From assembly GCF_004137345.1 (NCBI RefSeq), contig NZ_SDWV01000009.1, positions 124,001-188,000 of the forward strand: 64,000 nt of DNA. The letters are read 5' to 3'. Both the position numbers and the translations under genes were made by a program. This DNA comes from Nocardioides zhouii. GTDB taxonomy: Bacteria > Actinomycetota > Actinomycetes > Propionibacteriales > Nocardioidaceae. Below the pieces are notes generated by a model, which worked only from the letters and a program-made list of their open reading frames with translations, was not told where the DNA came from and did not search any database. The stretch's first letter is position 1. Every line of letters starts with the position of its first letter. Below, in pieces: positions 44,902 to 48,675 of this stretch.

Positions 44902-46845
44902 GTGACAATCCTCGACGCTGCCCGCGAGGGCATGAACCCCGACATCCGTCCCCAGGACGACCTCTTCGGCCACGTCAACGGACGCTGGCTCGACGACACC
45001 GAGATCCCGCAGGACAAGTCGAGCTGGGGCGCGTTCATCGCGCTGGCCGACGCCGCGGAGCAGCAGGTGCGCGACATCATCACCGACCTCGCCGACCGCC
45101 CGCGCGACGAGCTCGACGAGGACGAGCGCAAGGTGGGCGACCTCTACGCGTCGTTCATGGACACCGACACCATCGAGGCCAAGGGCCTGCAGCCCGTCCA
45201 GGGGCTGCTCGACCGGGCGCGTGCGGTGGGCGACCTCACCGACCTCGCGGCCTTCCTCGGCGTCTTCGAGCGGATCGGCGGCCCCGGCCTCTTCGGCTCC
45301 TACATCACCCCCGACCGCGGCGACGCGTCGAAGAACATCGTCTACCTCGCCCAGGGCGGCCTCGGCCTGCCCGACGAGTCCTACTACCGCGACGACAAGT
45401 TCGCCGAGATCCGCGAGAAGTACGTCGCCTACCTCACCACCCTGCTCACGCTGAGCAAGCACGACGACCCGGCCGGCGCCGCCGCCCGCGTGCTGGCGTA
45501 CGAGACCCGGGTGGCCGAGGGCCACTGGGAGGCCGCCGAGACGCGCGACGTCCAGAAGACCACCAACCACAAGACCCTCGACGAGCTCCGCGAGCTGTGC
45601 CCGGCCTTCGACTGGGTCACGTACGTCACCGGCCTCGGCGGCACCGAGGAGACGCTGCGCACCACGATCGTGATGCAGCCCGACTTCTTCTCGCACCTCT
45701 CCACGGTGCTCGAGGAGACGCCGCTGGACACGTGGCGCGACGTGCTGCACCTGCGCATCATCCGCAGCTCGGCTCCCTACCTGCCCGACGAGTTCGTCCA
45801 GGCCAACTTCGACTTCTACGGCCGCACCCTCAACGGCACCCCCGAGCTGCGCGCCCGCTGGAAGCGCGGCGTCGACTTCGTCGAGGGCTCGATCGGCGAG
45901 GCGGTCGGCAAGGTCTACGTCTCGCGCCACTTCCCGCCGACGTCGAAGGCGATGATGGACGACCTCGTCGCCAACCTCGTCACGGCCTACCGCCGCTCGA
46001 TCGAGACGCTCGACTGGATGGGCGAGGACACCAAGCAGAAGGCGTACGACAAGCTCGACCGCTTCTACCCGAAGATCGGCTACCCGCAGGAGTTCCGCGA
46101 CTACTCCGCGCTCACGATCTCGGCCGACGACCTGATGGCCAACGTCAACGCCGCGTCGGCCTTCGAGACCGACCGGCAGCTCGAGAAGGTGGGGCAGCCG
46201 GTCGACCGCGACGAGTGGCTGATGCTGCCGCAGACCGTCAACGCCTACTACCACCCGGGCACCAACGAGATCTGCTTTCCGGCCGCGATCCTGCAGCCGC
46301 CGTTCTTCAGCCCCGACGCTGAGGAGGCGGAGAACTACGGCGGCATCGGCGCGGTCATCGGCCACGAGCTCGGGCACGGCTTCGACGACCAGGGCGCGCA
46401 GTACGACGGCGACGGCAACCTCCACGACTGGTGGACCGCCGCCGACAAGACCGCCTTCGAGGCCAAGTCGCAGGCGCTCGTCAAGCAGTACGACGAGTTC
46501 GAGCCGCGCACCCTGCCCGGCGAGCACGTCAACGGCAGCCTCACCGTCGGCGAGAACATCGGCGACCTCGGCGGCCTCACCATCGCCCACAAGGCGTACG
46601 TCATCAGTCGTGACGGTGACGCCTCGCTCGACGAGCGCCGCACCCTGTTCCTCAACTGGGCGCACGTGTGGCGCACCAAGCGCCGCAAGGAGCAGGAGCT
46701 CCAGTACCTCACCATCGACCCGCACAGCCCGGCCGAGTTCCGCGCCAACATCGTGCGCAACCTCGACGAGTTCCACGAGGTCTTCGGCACCGAGCCCGGC
46801 GACGGACTCTGGCTCGAGCCCGAGGGTCGCGTCCGGATCTGGTAA
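44902..46845 (+). CDS. M13-family zinc metallopeptidase (PepO/neprilysin-like)
   Basis: 647 residues from the GTG at 44902. The zinc site HELGH is in GAVIGHELGHGFDDQGAQYD, the third ligand in GENIGDLGGL, and the family C-terminal Trp is present (RVRIW). The N-terminal NPDIRPQDDLFGHVNGRWLD is the usual start of mature bacterial PepO. There is no signal peptide or membrane anchor, unlike eukaryotic neprilysins, so it degrades oligopeptides up to about 30 residues in the cytoplasm. Stop is 2 bp before hairpin copy 1. Confidence 0.94.
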   Translation: MTILDAAREGMNPDIRPQDDLFGHVNGRWLDDTEIPQDKSSWGAFIALADAAEQQVRDIITDLADRPRDELDEDERKVGDLYASFMDTDTIEAKGLQPVQGLLDRARAVGDLTDLAAFLGVFERIGGPGLFGSYITPDRGDASKNIVYLAQGGLGLPDESYYRDDKFAEIREKYVAYLTTLLTLSKHDDPAGAAARVLAYETRVAEGHWEAAETRDVQKTTNHKTLDELRELCPAFDWVTYVTGLGGTEETLRTTIVMQPDFFSHLSTVLEETPLDTWRDVLHLRIIRSSAPYLPDEFVQANFDFYGRTLNGTPELRARWKRGVDFVEGSIGEAVGKVYVSRHFPPTSKAMMDDLVANLVTAYRRSIETLDWMGEDTKQKAYDKLDRFYPKIGYPQEFRDYSALTISADDLMANVNAASAFETDRQLEKVGQPVDRDEWLMLPQTVNAYYHPGTNEICFPAAILQPPFFSPDAEEAENYGGIGAVIGHELGHGFDDQGAQYDGDGNLHDWWTAADKTAFEAKSQALVKQYDEFEPRTLPGEHVNGSLTVGENIGDLGGLTIAHKAYVISRDGDASLDERRTLFLNWAHVWRTKRRKEQELQYLTIDPHSPAEFRANIVRNLDEFHEVFGTEPGDGLWLEPEGRVRIW

Positions 46846-46847
46846 CT

Positions 46848-46905
46848 CGTTACCGGACAGTCGTGTCCTGATCGGCGTCGCTGGCGACACGACTGTCCGG
46901 TAACG
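46848..46905. repeat. 58-bp hairpin, copy 1
   Basis: Arms CGTTACCGGACAGTCGTGTC (46848-46867) and its exact complement (46886-46905) enclose an 18-bp loop. The loop contains CGGC-GTC-GCTG, which can form a small inner stem with one G-U pair. The same 20-bp arms occur at 48003-48060. Immediately after the M13 peptidase stop, so it may terminate that gene. Confidence 0.92.
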
Positions 46906-46945
46906 GCGGACCTGTGGAGAGTGCCAGCAGGCGTACGCCGATCTG

Positions 46946-48001
46946 GTGCACGCTGCGACCGTGGCCAGGCACCGATGGGATCCCGTCGCGCCTCGGGTCT
47001 CCGTGGTGCATCCGCGGCGACTCGAGGACGGTCTGACGCCCGGTCAGGCCCGGGGTCCGCGGTGGGTCCGGACGGGCTCCGGGCTCTTCGTCCCGAGCGA
47101 GGTCAATCGCACCCTGACCCAGCAGCGCATCGTGGAGTGGGCCGCCCGGATGCCGCCGTACGCCGCCCTGACCGGATGGGCCGCCTGCCTCCTCCACGGG
47201 GCCGCCTTCCTCGACGGTCGTGACGTGGACGGCACGACCGAGCTGCCGGTCGGCATCGTGGTCGGGCACCGCGGTTCGATGCGCCGCGCCGCTGCGATCG
47301 CCGTCTCCTTCGAGGCGCTGCACGAGTGGGAGGTCGTCACGCGCTACGGCGTGCGGACTGTGGTCCCGGAGCGAGCCGTGTTCGACGAGATGCGGCGCCA
47401 CGACGAACGGGAGGCGCTCGTCGTGCTCGAGTCGGCGCTGGCGGGCCGGATCACGTCGCTGCCTCGTGTCGCCGCCCTTGCCCGTGCTCGTCGCAGCGCG
47501 CGCAGGGACGGGGTGGTCGGGTGGGCACTGGCGCGGGCACGCGGACGCGTCCGCTCGCCGATGGAGGTCCGGGCGCGTACGGTCGCCGAGGAGGACGCGG
47601 GCTGGCCGCGTCTGCTCGTCAACCGGGTGGTGCTCGCCTCGGACGGCACACGCATCGGCGAGGTGGACCTCATCGACGAAGAGGCGGAGGCGGCCATCGA
47701 GGTCGACGGCGCCGACCACCGCGGTGCTGAGCGGCAGGCGTGGGACATCACCAAGGAGGAGGCCCTTCGGCAGGTCGGGTTCGAGGTGGCCCGGGTGACG
47801 GGACGCCAGGCGATGAAGCCGAGCACACTGGCGCCCCGGCTGGTCGCCGTACGGGCGCGGGCGCTGGAACGCCCTTCGAGCGTCAGGCGCTGGCGCTTGG
47901 CCCCGGTCGAGGATGATCTCGAGGCATGGCTGGCGGACCGCGAGGAGGCGACGGCGTACTACGAGAACCTTCCAGACCCCCGCGGACTCACTGCCGGCTG
48001 A
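46946..48001 (+). CDS. Putative PD-(D/E)XK/DUF559-like protein between twin hairpins
   Basis: 351 residues, GTG start at 46946 (another GTG at 46961; no clear ribosome site). The N-terminal half has the look of AbiEi-like or winged-helix regions: GLFVPSEVNRTLTQQRIVEW, AALTGWAACLLHGAAFLDGR, and VPERAVFDEMRRHDE. The C-terminal half has RSPMEVRARTV and then IGEVDLIDEEAEAAIEVDGA, followed by HRGAERQAWDITKEEALRQV; this E...D...ExD spacing and the following helix match the DUF559/Vsr-like nuclease fold. Similar proteins are common, unexplained accessory genes in actinobacteria. The gene is bracketed by two nearly identical 58-bp hairpins. Nuclease activity is inferred. Confidence 0.72.
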   Translation: MHAATVARHRWDPVAPRVSVVHPRRLEDGLTPGQARGPRWVRTGSGLFVPSEVNRTLTQQRIVEWAARMPPYAALTGWAACLLHGAAFLDGRDVDGTTELPVGIVVGHRGSMRRAAAIAVSFEALHEWEVVTRYGVRTVVPERAVFDEMRRHDEREALVVLESALAGRITSLPRVAALARARRSARRDGVVGWALARARGRVRSPMEVRARTVAEEDAGWPRLLVNRVVLASDGTRIGEVDLIDEEAEAAIEVDGADHRGAERQAWDITKEEALRQVGFEVARVTGRQAMKPSTLAPRLVAVRARALERPSSVRRWRLAPVEDDLEAWLADREEATAYYENLPDPRGLTAG

Positions 48002-48002
48002 T

Positions 48003-48060
48003 CGTTACCGGACAGTCGTGTCGCGACCAGCGTTGCTGACGACACGACTGTCCGGTAACG
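48003..48060. repeat. 58-bp hairpin, copy 2
   Basis: Arms 48003-48022 and 48041-48060, identical to those of copy 1, around an 18-bp loop. The loop differs at about a third of positions but keeps the inner stem (CAGC-GTT-GCTG). It fills the gap between the stops of the nuclease-like gene (48001) and the convergent collagen-like gene (48067), so it could act as a bidirectional terminator. Confidence 0.92.
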
Positions 48061-48066
48061 CGGCGA

Positions 48067-48675
48067 TCAGCTCGGGACGGTCGCGCAGACCACGTCCAGC
48101 GTGAGCGTCTGCGCAGTGCCGAGCAGGTTGTAGCCGGAGGCACTGAAGGCGGTCGGGCTGGTCCGGGTGACCTGGCTGAACAGGCTCGCGAGCAGGTTGG
48201 CCGGTGCCGAGGCGTACGACGACGTCGCGGAGATCGCCTGCTTGCCGGCCGGGCACGCGCCCGCGACGGAACCGGTGCCGAGGATCCCCGGGATGGGCAC
48301 GGTCTGCGTGATGACCTCCAGGCCGCTGAGGCCCGGCAGGCCGGGCAGGCCCTGGAGGCCCTGGAGGCCCTGGAGGCCCTGGAGTCCGGGCAGGCCCGAC
48401 GAGCCGGCGGCGCCCGCCGGTCCGACCGGTCCGGCCGGTCCGGCGGGACCGCGCGCGCCGGCGGGGCCGGTCGCGCCCTTGAGCTTGGTCTTCGCCTTGG
48501 TCGAGAGGTCCTTGACCTTGAGGCTGCGGTTCTTGATGTCGCTGCTCGTGACCGAGCCGTCCTTGATCTGCTTGCCCGTGATCAGCAGTGAGGCGGTGGC
48601 ACCCGTTCCGGCGGCGAGCATGAGGGCGAGTGCGGCGACGACGATGGTCATGGCCGTCCGGGGTGTTCCCTTCAC
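48067..48675 (-). CDS. Collagen-like repeat protein
   Basis: 202 residues from the GTG at 48675, chosen because AGGAG (complement at 48681-48685) precedes it; an ATG at 48693 is in frame. An N-terminal hydrophobic helix (AMTIVVAALALMLAAGTGAT) may be a signal or anchor. KQIKDGSVTSSDIKNRSL resembles the stalk of other bacterial surface proteins. About 17 Gly-X-Y triplets follow (GPAGARGPAGPAG ... GLQGLQGLPGL), then a C-terminal globular domain with two Cys. Likely a surface trimer with a collagen-like stalk. Role unknown. Confidence 0.85.
   Translation of the reverse strand: MKGTPRTAMTIVVAALALMLAAGTGATASLLITGKQIKDGSVTSSDIKNRSLKVKDLSTKAKTKLKGATGPAGARGPAGPAGPVGPAGAAGSSGLPGLQGLQGLQGLQGLPGLPGLSGLEVITQTVPIPGILGTGSVAGACPAGKQAISATSSYASAPANLLASLFSQVTRTSPTAFSASGYNLLGTAQTLTLDVVCATVPS
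48352..48387. repeat. 9-bp tandem repeat in collagen-like gene
   Basis: CTGGAGGCC repeated three times and once with a change (48352-48387). On the coding strand it encodes Gly-Leu-Gln triplets, so repeat number may vary by slippage without frame loss. Confidence 0.85.

Follow-up and report, generated by a model that had tools for sequence, protein, structure and literature searches.

A nuclease-like gene bracketed by matching palindromes in Nocardioides zhouii: a probable unit of a REP-like system in Actinomycetes

The window, a 64,000 bp stretch of the Nocardioides zhouii genome, contains a nuclease-like gene bracketed by two hairpins with identical arms. With a probability of roughly two in three, we consider it to be one unit of a widespread REP-like system of the Actinomycetes in which a non-HUH nuclease recognises its cognate palindrome. 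The match between upstream and downstream palindromes, arms that were specific to the locus or genome, lone copies of the palindrome, inversion in place and conserved putative nuclease residues were all observed directly.

The window hairpins and their copies within the genus

The bracketed gene (46946–48001, forward strand) is an open reading frame of 351 amino acids, the start of which may be a GTG at 46961 according to the family consensus MxxHRWDP. Its pN/pS of 0.32–0.55 (21 pairs of 7 relatives) indicated moderate constraint. Neighbouring genes in the window encoded an M13 peptidase, a collagen-like protein and a 2-phosphosulpholactate phosphatase-like protein. The upstream hairpin (46848–46905) and the downstream hairpin (48003–48060), to which no strand was assigned, are each 58 bp long and share the same arms around different loops. 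The arms (46848–46867/46886–46905 and 48003–48022/48041–48060) were 100% complementary and identical between both hairpins, starting CGTTACC and ending GGTAACG. The 20 bp arms and 18 nt loops of the original prediction proved exact, and the stem of the downstream hairpin measures 21 bp. That prediction also had a small inner stem kept in both loops; it folds in the downstream hairpin but was marginal in the upstream one, and no loop stem common to all four hairpins of the source genome was seen. The word GATCSG was present in three of these four loops by our own comparison.

The upstream hairpin lies 2 nt past the stop codon of the M13 peptidase gene; the downstream hairpin lies 1 nt past that of the bracketed gene and stops a few bases short of the end of the convergent collagen-like gene. 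The downstream hairpin aligned best with the upstream one in direct orientation. At up to three mismatches the arm occurred four times in the window (0.01 expected), which 0 of 100 shuffles reached, and as single-strand DNA both hairpins folded with z between -7.4 and -8.9 on both strands. A search of Rfam with 46500–48500 at a permissive threshold returned just sub-threshold microRNA matches, due to the hairpin shape.

Analysis of the whole source genome revealed four such hairpins: the window pair and two lone copies, one at 155773–155830 of contig C1 and an imperfect one at 179279–179336 of contig C44. A ninth single-arm match had no partner arm. An arm search of the genome and the genus, which the original prediction had proposed, thus added two copies in the source genome and found the pattern to be rare in the genus, as the 17-nt arm pattern with at most one mismatch was present in 5 of 196 genomes. 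In G019 the two-hairpin layout of the window surrounded a frameshifted homologue, in G136 it adjoined the homologous gene, and G021 and G045 had single matches without a strict hairpin. A duplication local to the window was ruled out as the origin of the hairpin, since related genomes have their own, different paired hairpins.

The pattern TACCGRACAGTC-N20-40-GACTGTYCGGTA matched 11 of the 196 genomes, and its reversed control matched none. The TACCGRACAGTC hairpin and a close homologue of the gene (at least 50% identity, broken copies included) were found together in 8 genomes, the hairpin only in 3, the gene only in 2 and neither in 183, a co-occurrence with P of about 1.5e-10 (5.8e-9 without the fragment in G112). 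Both gene-only genomes, G019 and G021, carried frameshifted copies. The hairpin-only genomes (G104, G107 and G132) carried the TACCG hairpin, and G132 has a 46% homologue with a related hairpin. Inner-arm identity was 0.779 within genomes versus 0.482 between them, a difference reached by 0 of 5000 label permutations. In G007 and G116, lone hairpins close to the M13 locus start with GTAGTCCACCGGGA. Two family genes were fetched from each of these genomes; one cassette per genome has the 14 bases of GTAGTCCACCGGGA in its arms, followed by inner bases unlike those of the lone copy; the second gene of each genome was unpaired.

Two further features were noted in the source genome. An apparent replication-origin region at 2231–2490 of the window has several TGTGGATAA/TTGTCCACA-like words and, beside them, two long hairpins with the ends GAGCGGTG/CACCGCTC in common. 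Another dispersed repeat, about 60 bp long and located at about 5036–5107 of L013 (contig C1), has many matches in the source genome, which is without Y1_Tnp, and in G019, G017, G022 and G012.

Paired palindromes around homologous genes

Homologues of the window protein were present in 168 of the 196 genomes of the genus, and 126 of 197 genomes across the class matched the family at E<=1e-10. The source genome itself had 11 matches. Five of its family loci were retrieved with flanks: L220, L226, L231 and L237 showed clear, mutually different paired hairpins, and L246 a weak pair. A 330-bp upstream/downstream repeat at L237 was a contig-end artefact of the analysis and was discarded; both L237 hairpins are real.

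Among the best 30 loci of the genus, a strict hairpin was found near a gene end in 26, and 11 of these had matching arms on both sides. A named-collection set comprised 79 loci, 74 of them with full 350-bp flanks; as 22 of the best 30 loci recur in it, the sets overlap and do not count as independent. Comparison of the upstream and downstream flanks gave a best ungapped repeat scoring at least 18 at 48 of the 74 loci, compared with 2 of 434 cross-locus controls and 1 of 286 pseudo-genes placed at shifted positions in these loci. There were 69 strict hairpins in 51.8 kb of flank versus 6 in 509.7 kb elsewhere, a 113-fold higher density beside family genes. They lay upstream at 32 of the 74 loci and downstream at 37, on both sides at 20 and on at least one side at 49, leaving 25 with none. 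With slightly wider flanks and a score of at least 16, 53 of 76 named loci were paired (28 direct, 23 inverted, 2 tied). The original prediction had likened the layout to REP elements and their RAYT proteins, with a different protein family, and these paired, locus-specific hairpins around many relatives agree with it.

Pairing at the same score extended to further sets. Genes from a protein search were paired in 14 of 20 cases (12 of 17 once 3 loci already known under other names were removed). A class-wide search gave 9 of 9 new loci of the genus and, outside it, 9 of the 14 loci (other genera and families) with both flanks; 6 more loci with short flanks were left unscored. Four of five plasmid-borne relatives of the second-genus protein described below were bracketed (Arthrobacter, Tsukamurella) and the Nonomuraea gene was unpaired, with gene ends estimated in three of the five records. 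The arms vary from locus to locus and agree within one locus. These results point to a strong link between hairpin and protein family; it had been suggested that such tracking elsewhere would make a new hairpin/nuclease system, and tracking was found at the named loci and in the further sets. Hairpin similarity followed protein similarity among close relatives only (Mantel r 0.091, reached by 101 of 2000 permutations). At L142, L158, L160 and L181 a palindrome of about 16–26 bp, loop-less or almost so, lies inside the paired repeat, either next to the long hairpin or in its place, and is perhaps a different type of substrate.

In a second genus, the hairpin bracketing L265 and L267 begins TTGATCTTGGAGT and is dispersed in high copy number. 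The 12 genomes analysed contained 1, 0, 43, 3, 72, 46, 38, 3, 11, 56, 0 and 11 copies. Genomes with a close cognate gene (at least 68% identity) had 56, 72, 11, 1, 11, 46 and 38 copies and those without had 0, 43, 3, 3 and 0 (one-sided Mann-Whitney P 0.036). The exception is G338, whose 43 copies without a close cognate indicate that palindrome copies persist in its absence; in this genome the cognate gene was either lost or is dispensable. Copies from one genome of each kind, chosen as the first listed or as lying clear of contig ends and in every case by exact outer arms, were compared at inner arm positions 14–18: 91 of 100 were paired in G347 (20 of its 72 copies), each position reached by 0 or 1 of 500 shuffles, versus 74 of 100 in G338 (20 of its 43 copies), which was poorer (P 0.0025). 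Pairing at positions 14–16 of G338 was no better than shuffled. The better arm pairing in G347 fits upkeep by the cognate protein. By rough gene calls the copies were intergenic and mostly near gene 3′-ends, at a median distance of 16 bp in G338 (n=33) and 35 bp in G347 (n=23), and 1 of 40 lone copies in the two genomes lay inside a gene. The 70-nt hairpin of this genus had no plasmid match.

The position of lone copies near gene 3′-ends, and of both window hairpins after stop codons, is what would be expected of strong bidirectional terminators or insulators around an accessory gene, kept alike by gene conversion, with a protein that is inactive on the hairpins. The original prediction likewise held that an ordinary terminator family would be indicated by copies at 3′-ends across unrelated genes and independent of the protein; the location was as described, but hairpin and protein are strongly linked. 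The arms vary with the gene and agree within a locus or genome, and these loci contain few other long hairpins, both of which count against terminators. Unlike an intrinsic terminator, neither window hairpin is followed by a T-run on either strand, and a terminator scan, which admits loops of 3–8 only, gave no match at them. Mismatches on the gene strand comprised 18 G-T and 20 A-C, an absence of G-T excess that gives no sign of RNA-level selection on the palindromes. Furthermore, one of the two lone copies in the source genome lies 8 bp upstream of a gene start, between divergent genes. We therefore think it unlikely that termination explains the bracketing, although a terminator role for standalone copies is possible.

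The bracketed protein and its proposed action

The model of the bracketed protein (pLDDT 93.8) was compared with 395 chains by VIA-align. Residues 21–199 (47006–47542, forward strand) form an AbiEi-antitoxin-like N-terminal part, predicted to bind DNA, that aligned with AbiEi (6y8q; Z 9.7, rmsd 4.7, 162 residues) and with Rv2827c (1zel) at Z 7.0, which is in the middling range of VIA-align. Residues from about 203 to 308 (47552–47869, forward strand) form a Vsr/EDxHD-type nuclease domain that aligned, over residues 204–308, with I-Bth0305I (3r3p; Z 11.4, rmsd 2.4, 95 residues) and Vsr (1cw0; Z 10.7, rmsd 2.2, 100 residues). Foldseek by itself was weak, its best nuclease match being I-Bth0305I at E 0.24. 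Eight positions were invariant among 73 sequences, including E207, D241, H258 and D267, candidate active-site residues in the right order for EDxHD. On the model, then, the bracketed protein is an AbiEi-like part joined to a Vsr/I-Bth0305I-type nuclease domain.

The earlier description of the protein as DUF559/Vsr-like was supported by the match of the model to Vsr-type nucleases, but the window protein fell below the Pfam cut-offs for DUF559 (PF04480; 20.1 vs 20.6 bits) and for MTES_1575 (PF18741; 22.4 vs 38.2 bits). At E<=0.01, 16 of 73 relatives matched DUF559 and 13 of 73 matched MTES_1575. NCBIfam had no match for five proteins, and a sequence search of the PDB returned nothing better than E 0.19. 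PADLOC gave weak AbiEi matches in 4 of 5 proteins, which count towards the assignment of the N-terminal part. A self-protecting defence gene, another earlier suggestion, found little in its favour beyond these matches, as no nucleotidyltransferase toxin gene adjoins the bracketed gene among its window neighbours.

The two halves have relatives with suggestive DNA targets. A review (PMC3943268) describes EDxHD enzymes as having a long multi-domain structure and I-Bth0305I as dimerising on almost 60 bp of target DNA, which is close to the length of the palindromes here. The catalytic domain shares the fold of I-Bth0305I and Vsr, and its invariant E, D, H and D are candidates for the same active site; unlike them, the protein is free-standing between two intact presumed sites and has an AbiEi-like part. 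Members of the AbiEi antitoxin family (AbiEi, Rv2827c), whose N-terminal two-domain fold it shares, recognise inverted repeats within the promoters of their own genes (PMC7319586). In contrast to that family, the fold is here fused to a nuclease and the window gene has no partner toxin beside it.

The interval from the upstream hairpin to the gene start contains a TGTGGA box (46913–46918, forward strand). Its family consensus is gCCTGTGGAtga, and we take it to resemble a DnaA box. Of 77 family genes, 45 had TGTGGA or TCCACA in the preceding 110 bp, versus 47 of 1825 background windows. Given the likeness to AbiEi and Rv2827c as binders of promoter repeats, the palindromes might be operators of an autorepressor, the lone copies its regulon, and the nuclease domain directed at some other target. 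This explanation is improbable to about the same degree as termination: a matching copy also stands downstream of the gene, lone copies lie mostly at 3′-ends and not at promoters, and the TGTGGA box is an additional candidate operator.

The preferred reading, a nuclease that recognises its own palindrome, may be put as follows. The AbiEi-like and Vsr/EDxHD-type protein would bind its cognate palindrome of about 50–95 bp as DNA, probably in the form of a dimer whose subunits each read one arm; the agreement of sequences points to this recognition. It would then nick or cut the palindrome, as the conserved residues and fold suggest, perhaps only if this is single-stranded or extruded during replication. 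Subsequent repair or recombination would copy and homogenise the palindromes and now and then invert them together with the gene between. The palindrome would in this way bracket its own gene and spread as lone intergenic copies, the existence of which suggests dispersal. As intact copies survive beside an intact gene, efficient cutting of ordinary duplex DNA is unlikely, and an enzyme that cut its own intact flanking sites would need a safeguard. By analogy with TnpAREP, which acts with single-stranded REP (PMC8266576), a single-stranded or cruciform substrate would be the simplest way out. Against this explanation also stand the 25 of 74 loci without a strict hairpin, the G338 copies without a close cognate, the three genomes with the TACCG hairpin and no homologue of at least 50% identity, the weak overall correlation of hairpin and protein similarity, the negative results for a clean empty site at the M13 locus and for target duplication, and the weak Foldseek E value.

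A more specific version is a palindrome-homing system of a new class, in which a dimeric AbiEi-EDxHD protein reads a paralogue-specific code in the inner arms, and nicking or cutting drives the copying, homogenisation and flipping of palindromes. Several independent pairs of palindrome and enzyme, evolving as lock and key, would coexist in one genome without an HUH or DDE transposase. We offer this version tentatively and would sooner doubt than accept it in full.

The closest precedent for the layout is the REPtron, a REP with its TnpAREP/RAYT. REPtrons (PMC8266576, PMC3733652), as here, have a gene between cognate palindromes and lone intergenic copies, the gene is usually in few copies with no sign that the unit moves, and the palindromes co-vary with the protein although orphan palindromes exist. 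The enzymes differ: the REPtron has an HUH tyrosine transposase, the present system a nuclease of Vsr/EDxHD type joined to an AbiEi-like part. The palindromes here are longer (about 50–95 bp) and fewer (0–72 copies where counted), and those of the window have no GTAG foot, although some other classes start with paired GTAG or CGTC. A search of the source genome for the Y1/RAYT transposase (PF01797) gave no match (positive control 5 of 14), and RAYT-driven REP was ruled out for this genome, which has no Y1_Tnp. The system thus works like a REPtron yet is not a member, as the source genome has no HUH enzyme and the window palindromes have no GTAG foot.

No paper on this association of palindrome and nuclease was found in the open-licence PMC literature. 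On these searches the pairing of enzyme and repeat would be new, with the REPtron as precedent for its layout. It presents a non-homologous nuclease family whose genes have their own palindrome on either side, gene and palindrome varying together, across several families of actinomycetes. Should the protein prove to act on this palindrome, dispersed palindromes would have evolved independently by a second route, and many natural enzyme/site pairs would be available for studying change in nuclease specificity, with 11 family members in the source genome. Each bracketed gene has a candidate substrate on both sides.

Inversion and mobility of the bracketed unit

In three locus sets the cassette was inverted at its site between colinear flanks, the breakpoints coinciding with the hairpins: L303 and L295 relative to L296, L302 relative to L313, and L035 and L034 relative to L036 at the M13 site. 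An alignment of L303 with L296 showed that the left match ends at 1475, the end of the hairpin at 1415–1475, and the right match starts at 2436, within the hairpin at 2435–2503; the segment between 1390 and 2509 aligned in reverse. The colinear flanks around a reversed segment indicate that inversion takes place at the hairpins without a change of site. Recombination by RecA between the repeats could explain the inversions, and the enzyme would not be required.

Clean empty sites, which the original prediction had linked to a mobile cassette, did not appear at the M13 locus, the sole site examined, where there was also no empty allele with a single hairpin. At the M13 site of relatives without the gene, different spacers were present among the matches listed (23 of 40 loci), and some of these contained an unrelated inverted repeat. 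G019 was considered as an empty site for the lone hairpin on contig C1; the stretch fetched from G019 has no counterpart of that hairpin, yet gene order differs and the site is not clean. In contrast to a classical insertion sequence, no target-site duplication was found at 32 loci, the longest word shared by the outer 12-mers having a mean of 3.56 versus 3.30 cross-locus. The window protein had no match at E<=1e-5 among 72,556 plasmid or 50,697 phage records, and no fresh palindrome insertion was caught. A transposon-like cassette of hairpin, gene and hairpin that moves as a unit would account for its patchy distribution at the M13 locus, its occurrence in both orientations at a single site and the two cognate copies in each of G282 and G347, but is the least probable of the explanations, as several sites are common to different species with flanks 75–94% identical and neither target duplications, an empty M13 site nor plasmid or phage matches were seen.

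Two further loci were noted in the comparison of M13 sites. L120, labelled as an Actinomycetospora MAG, showed 90% identity in the M13 gene and 88% in the phosphatase; it is probably a misbinned Nocardioides contig and not evidence of transfer. The fetched stretch of L065 (G160), which has no homologue of the nuclease gene, carries an unrelated 69-bp hairpin after the M13 gene (321–389 of the reverse complement), beginning ACTCGTGAGTTGGCG.
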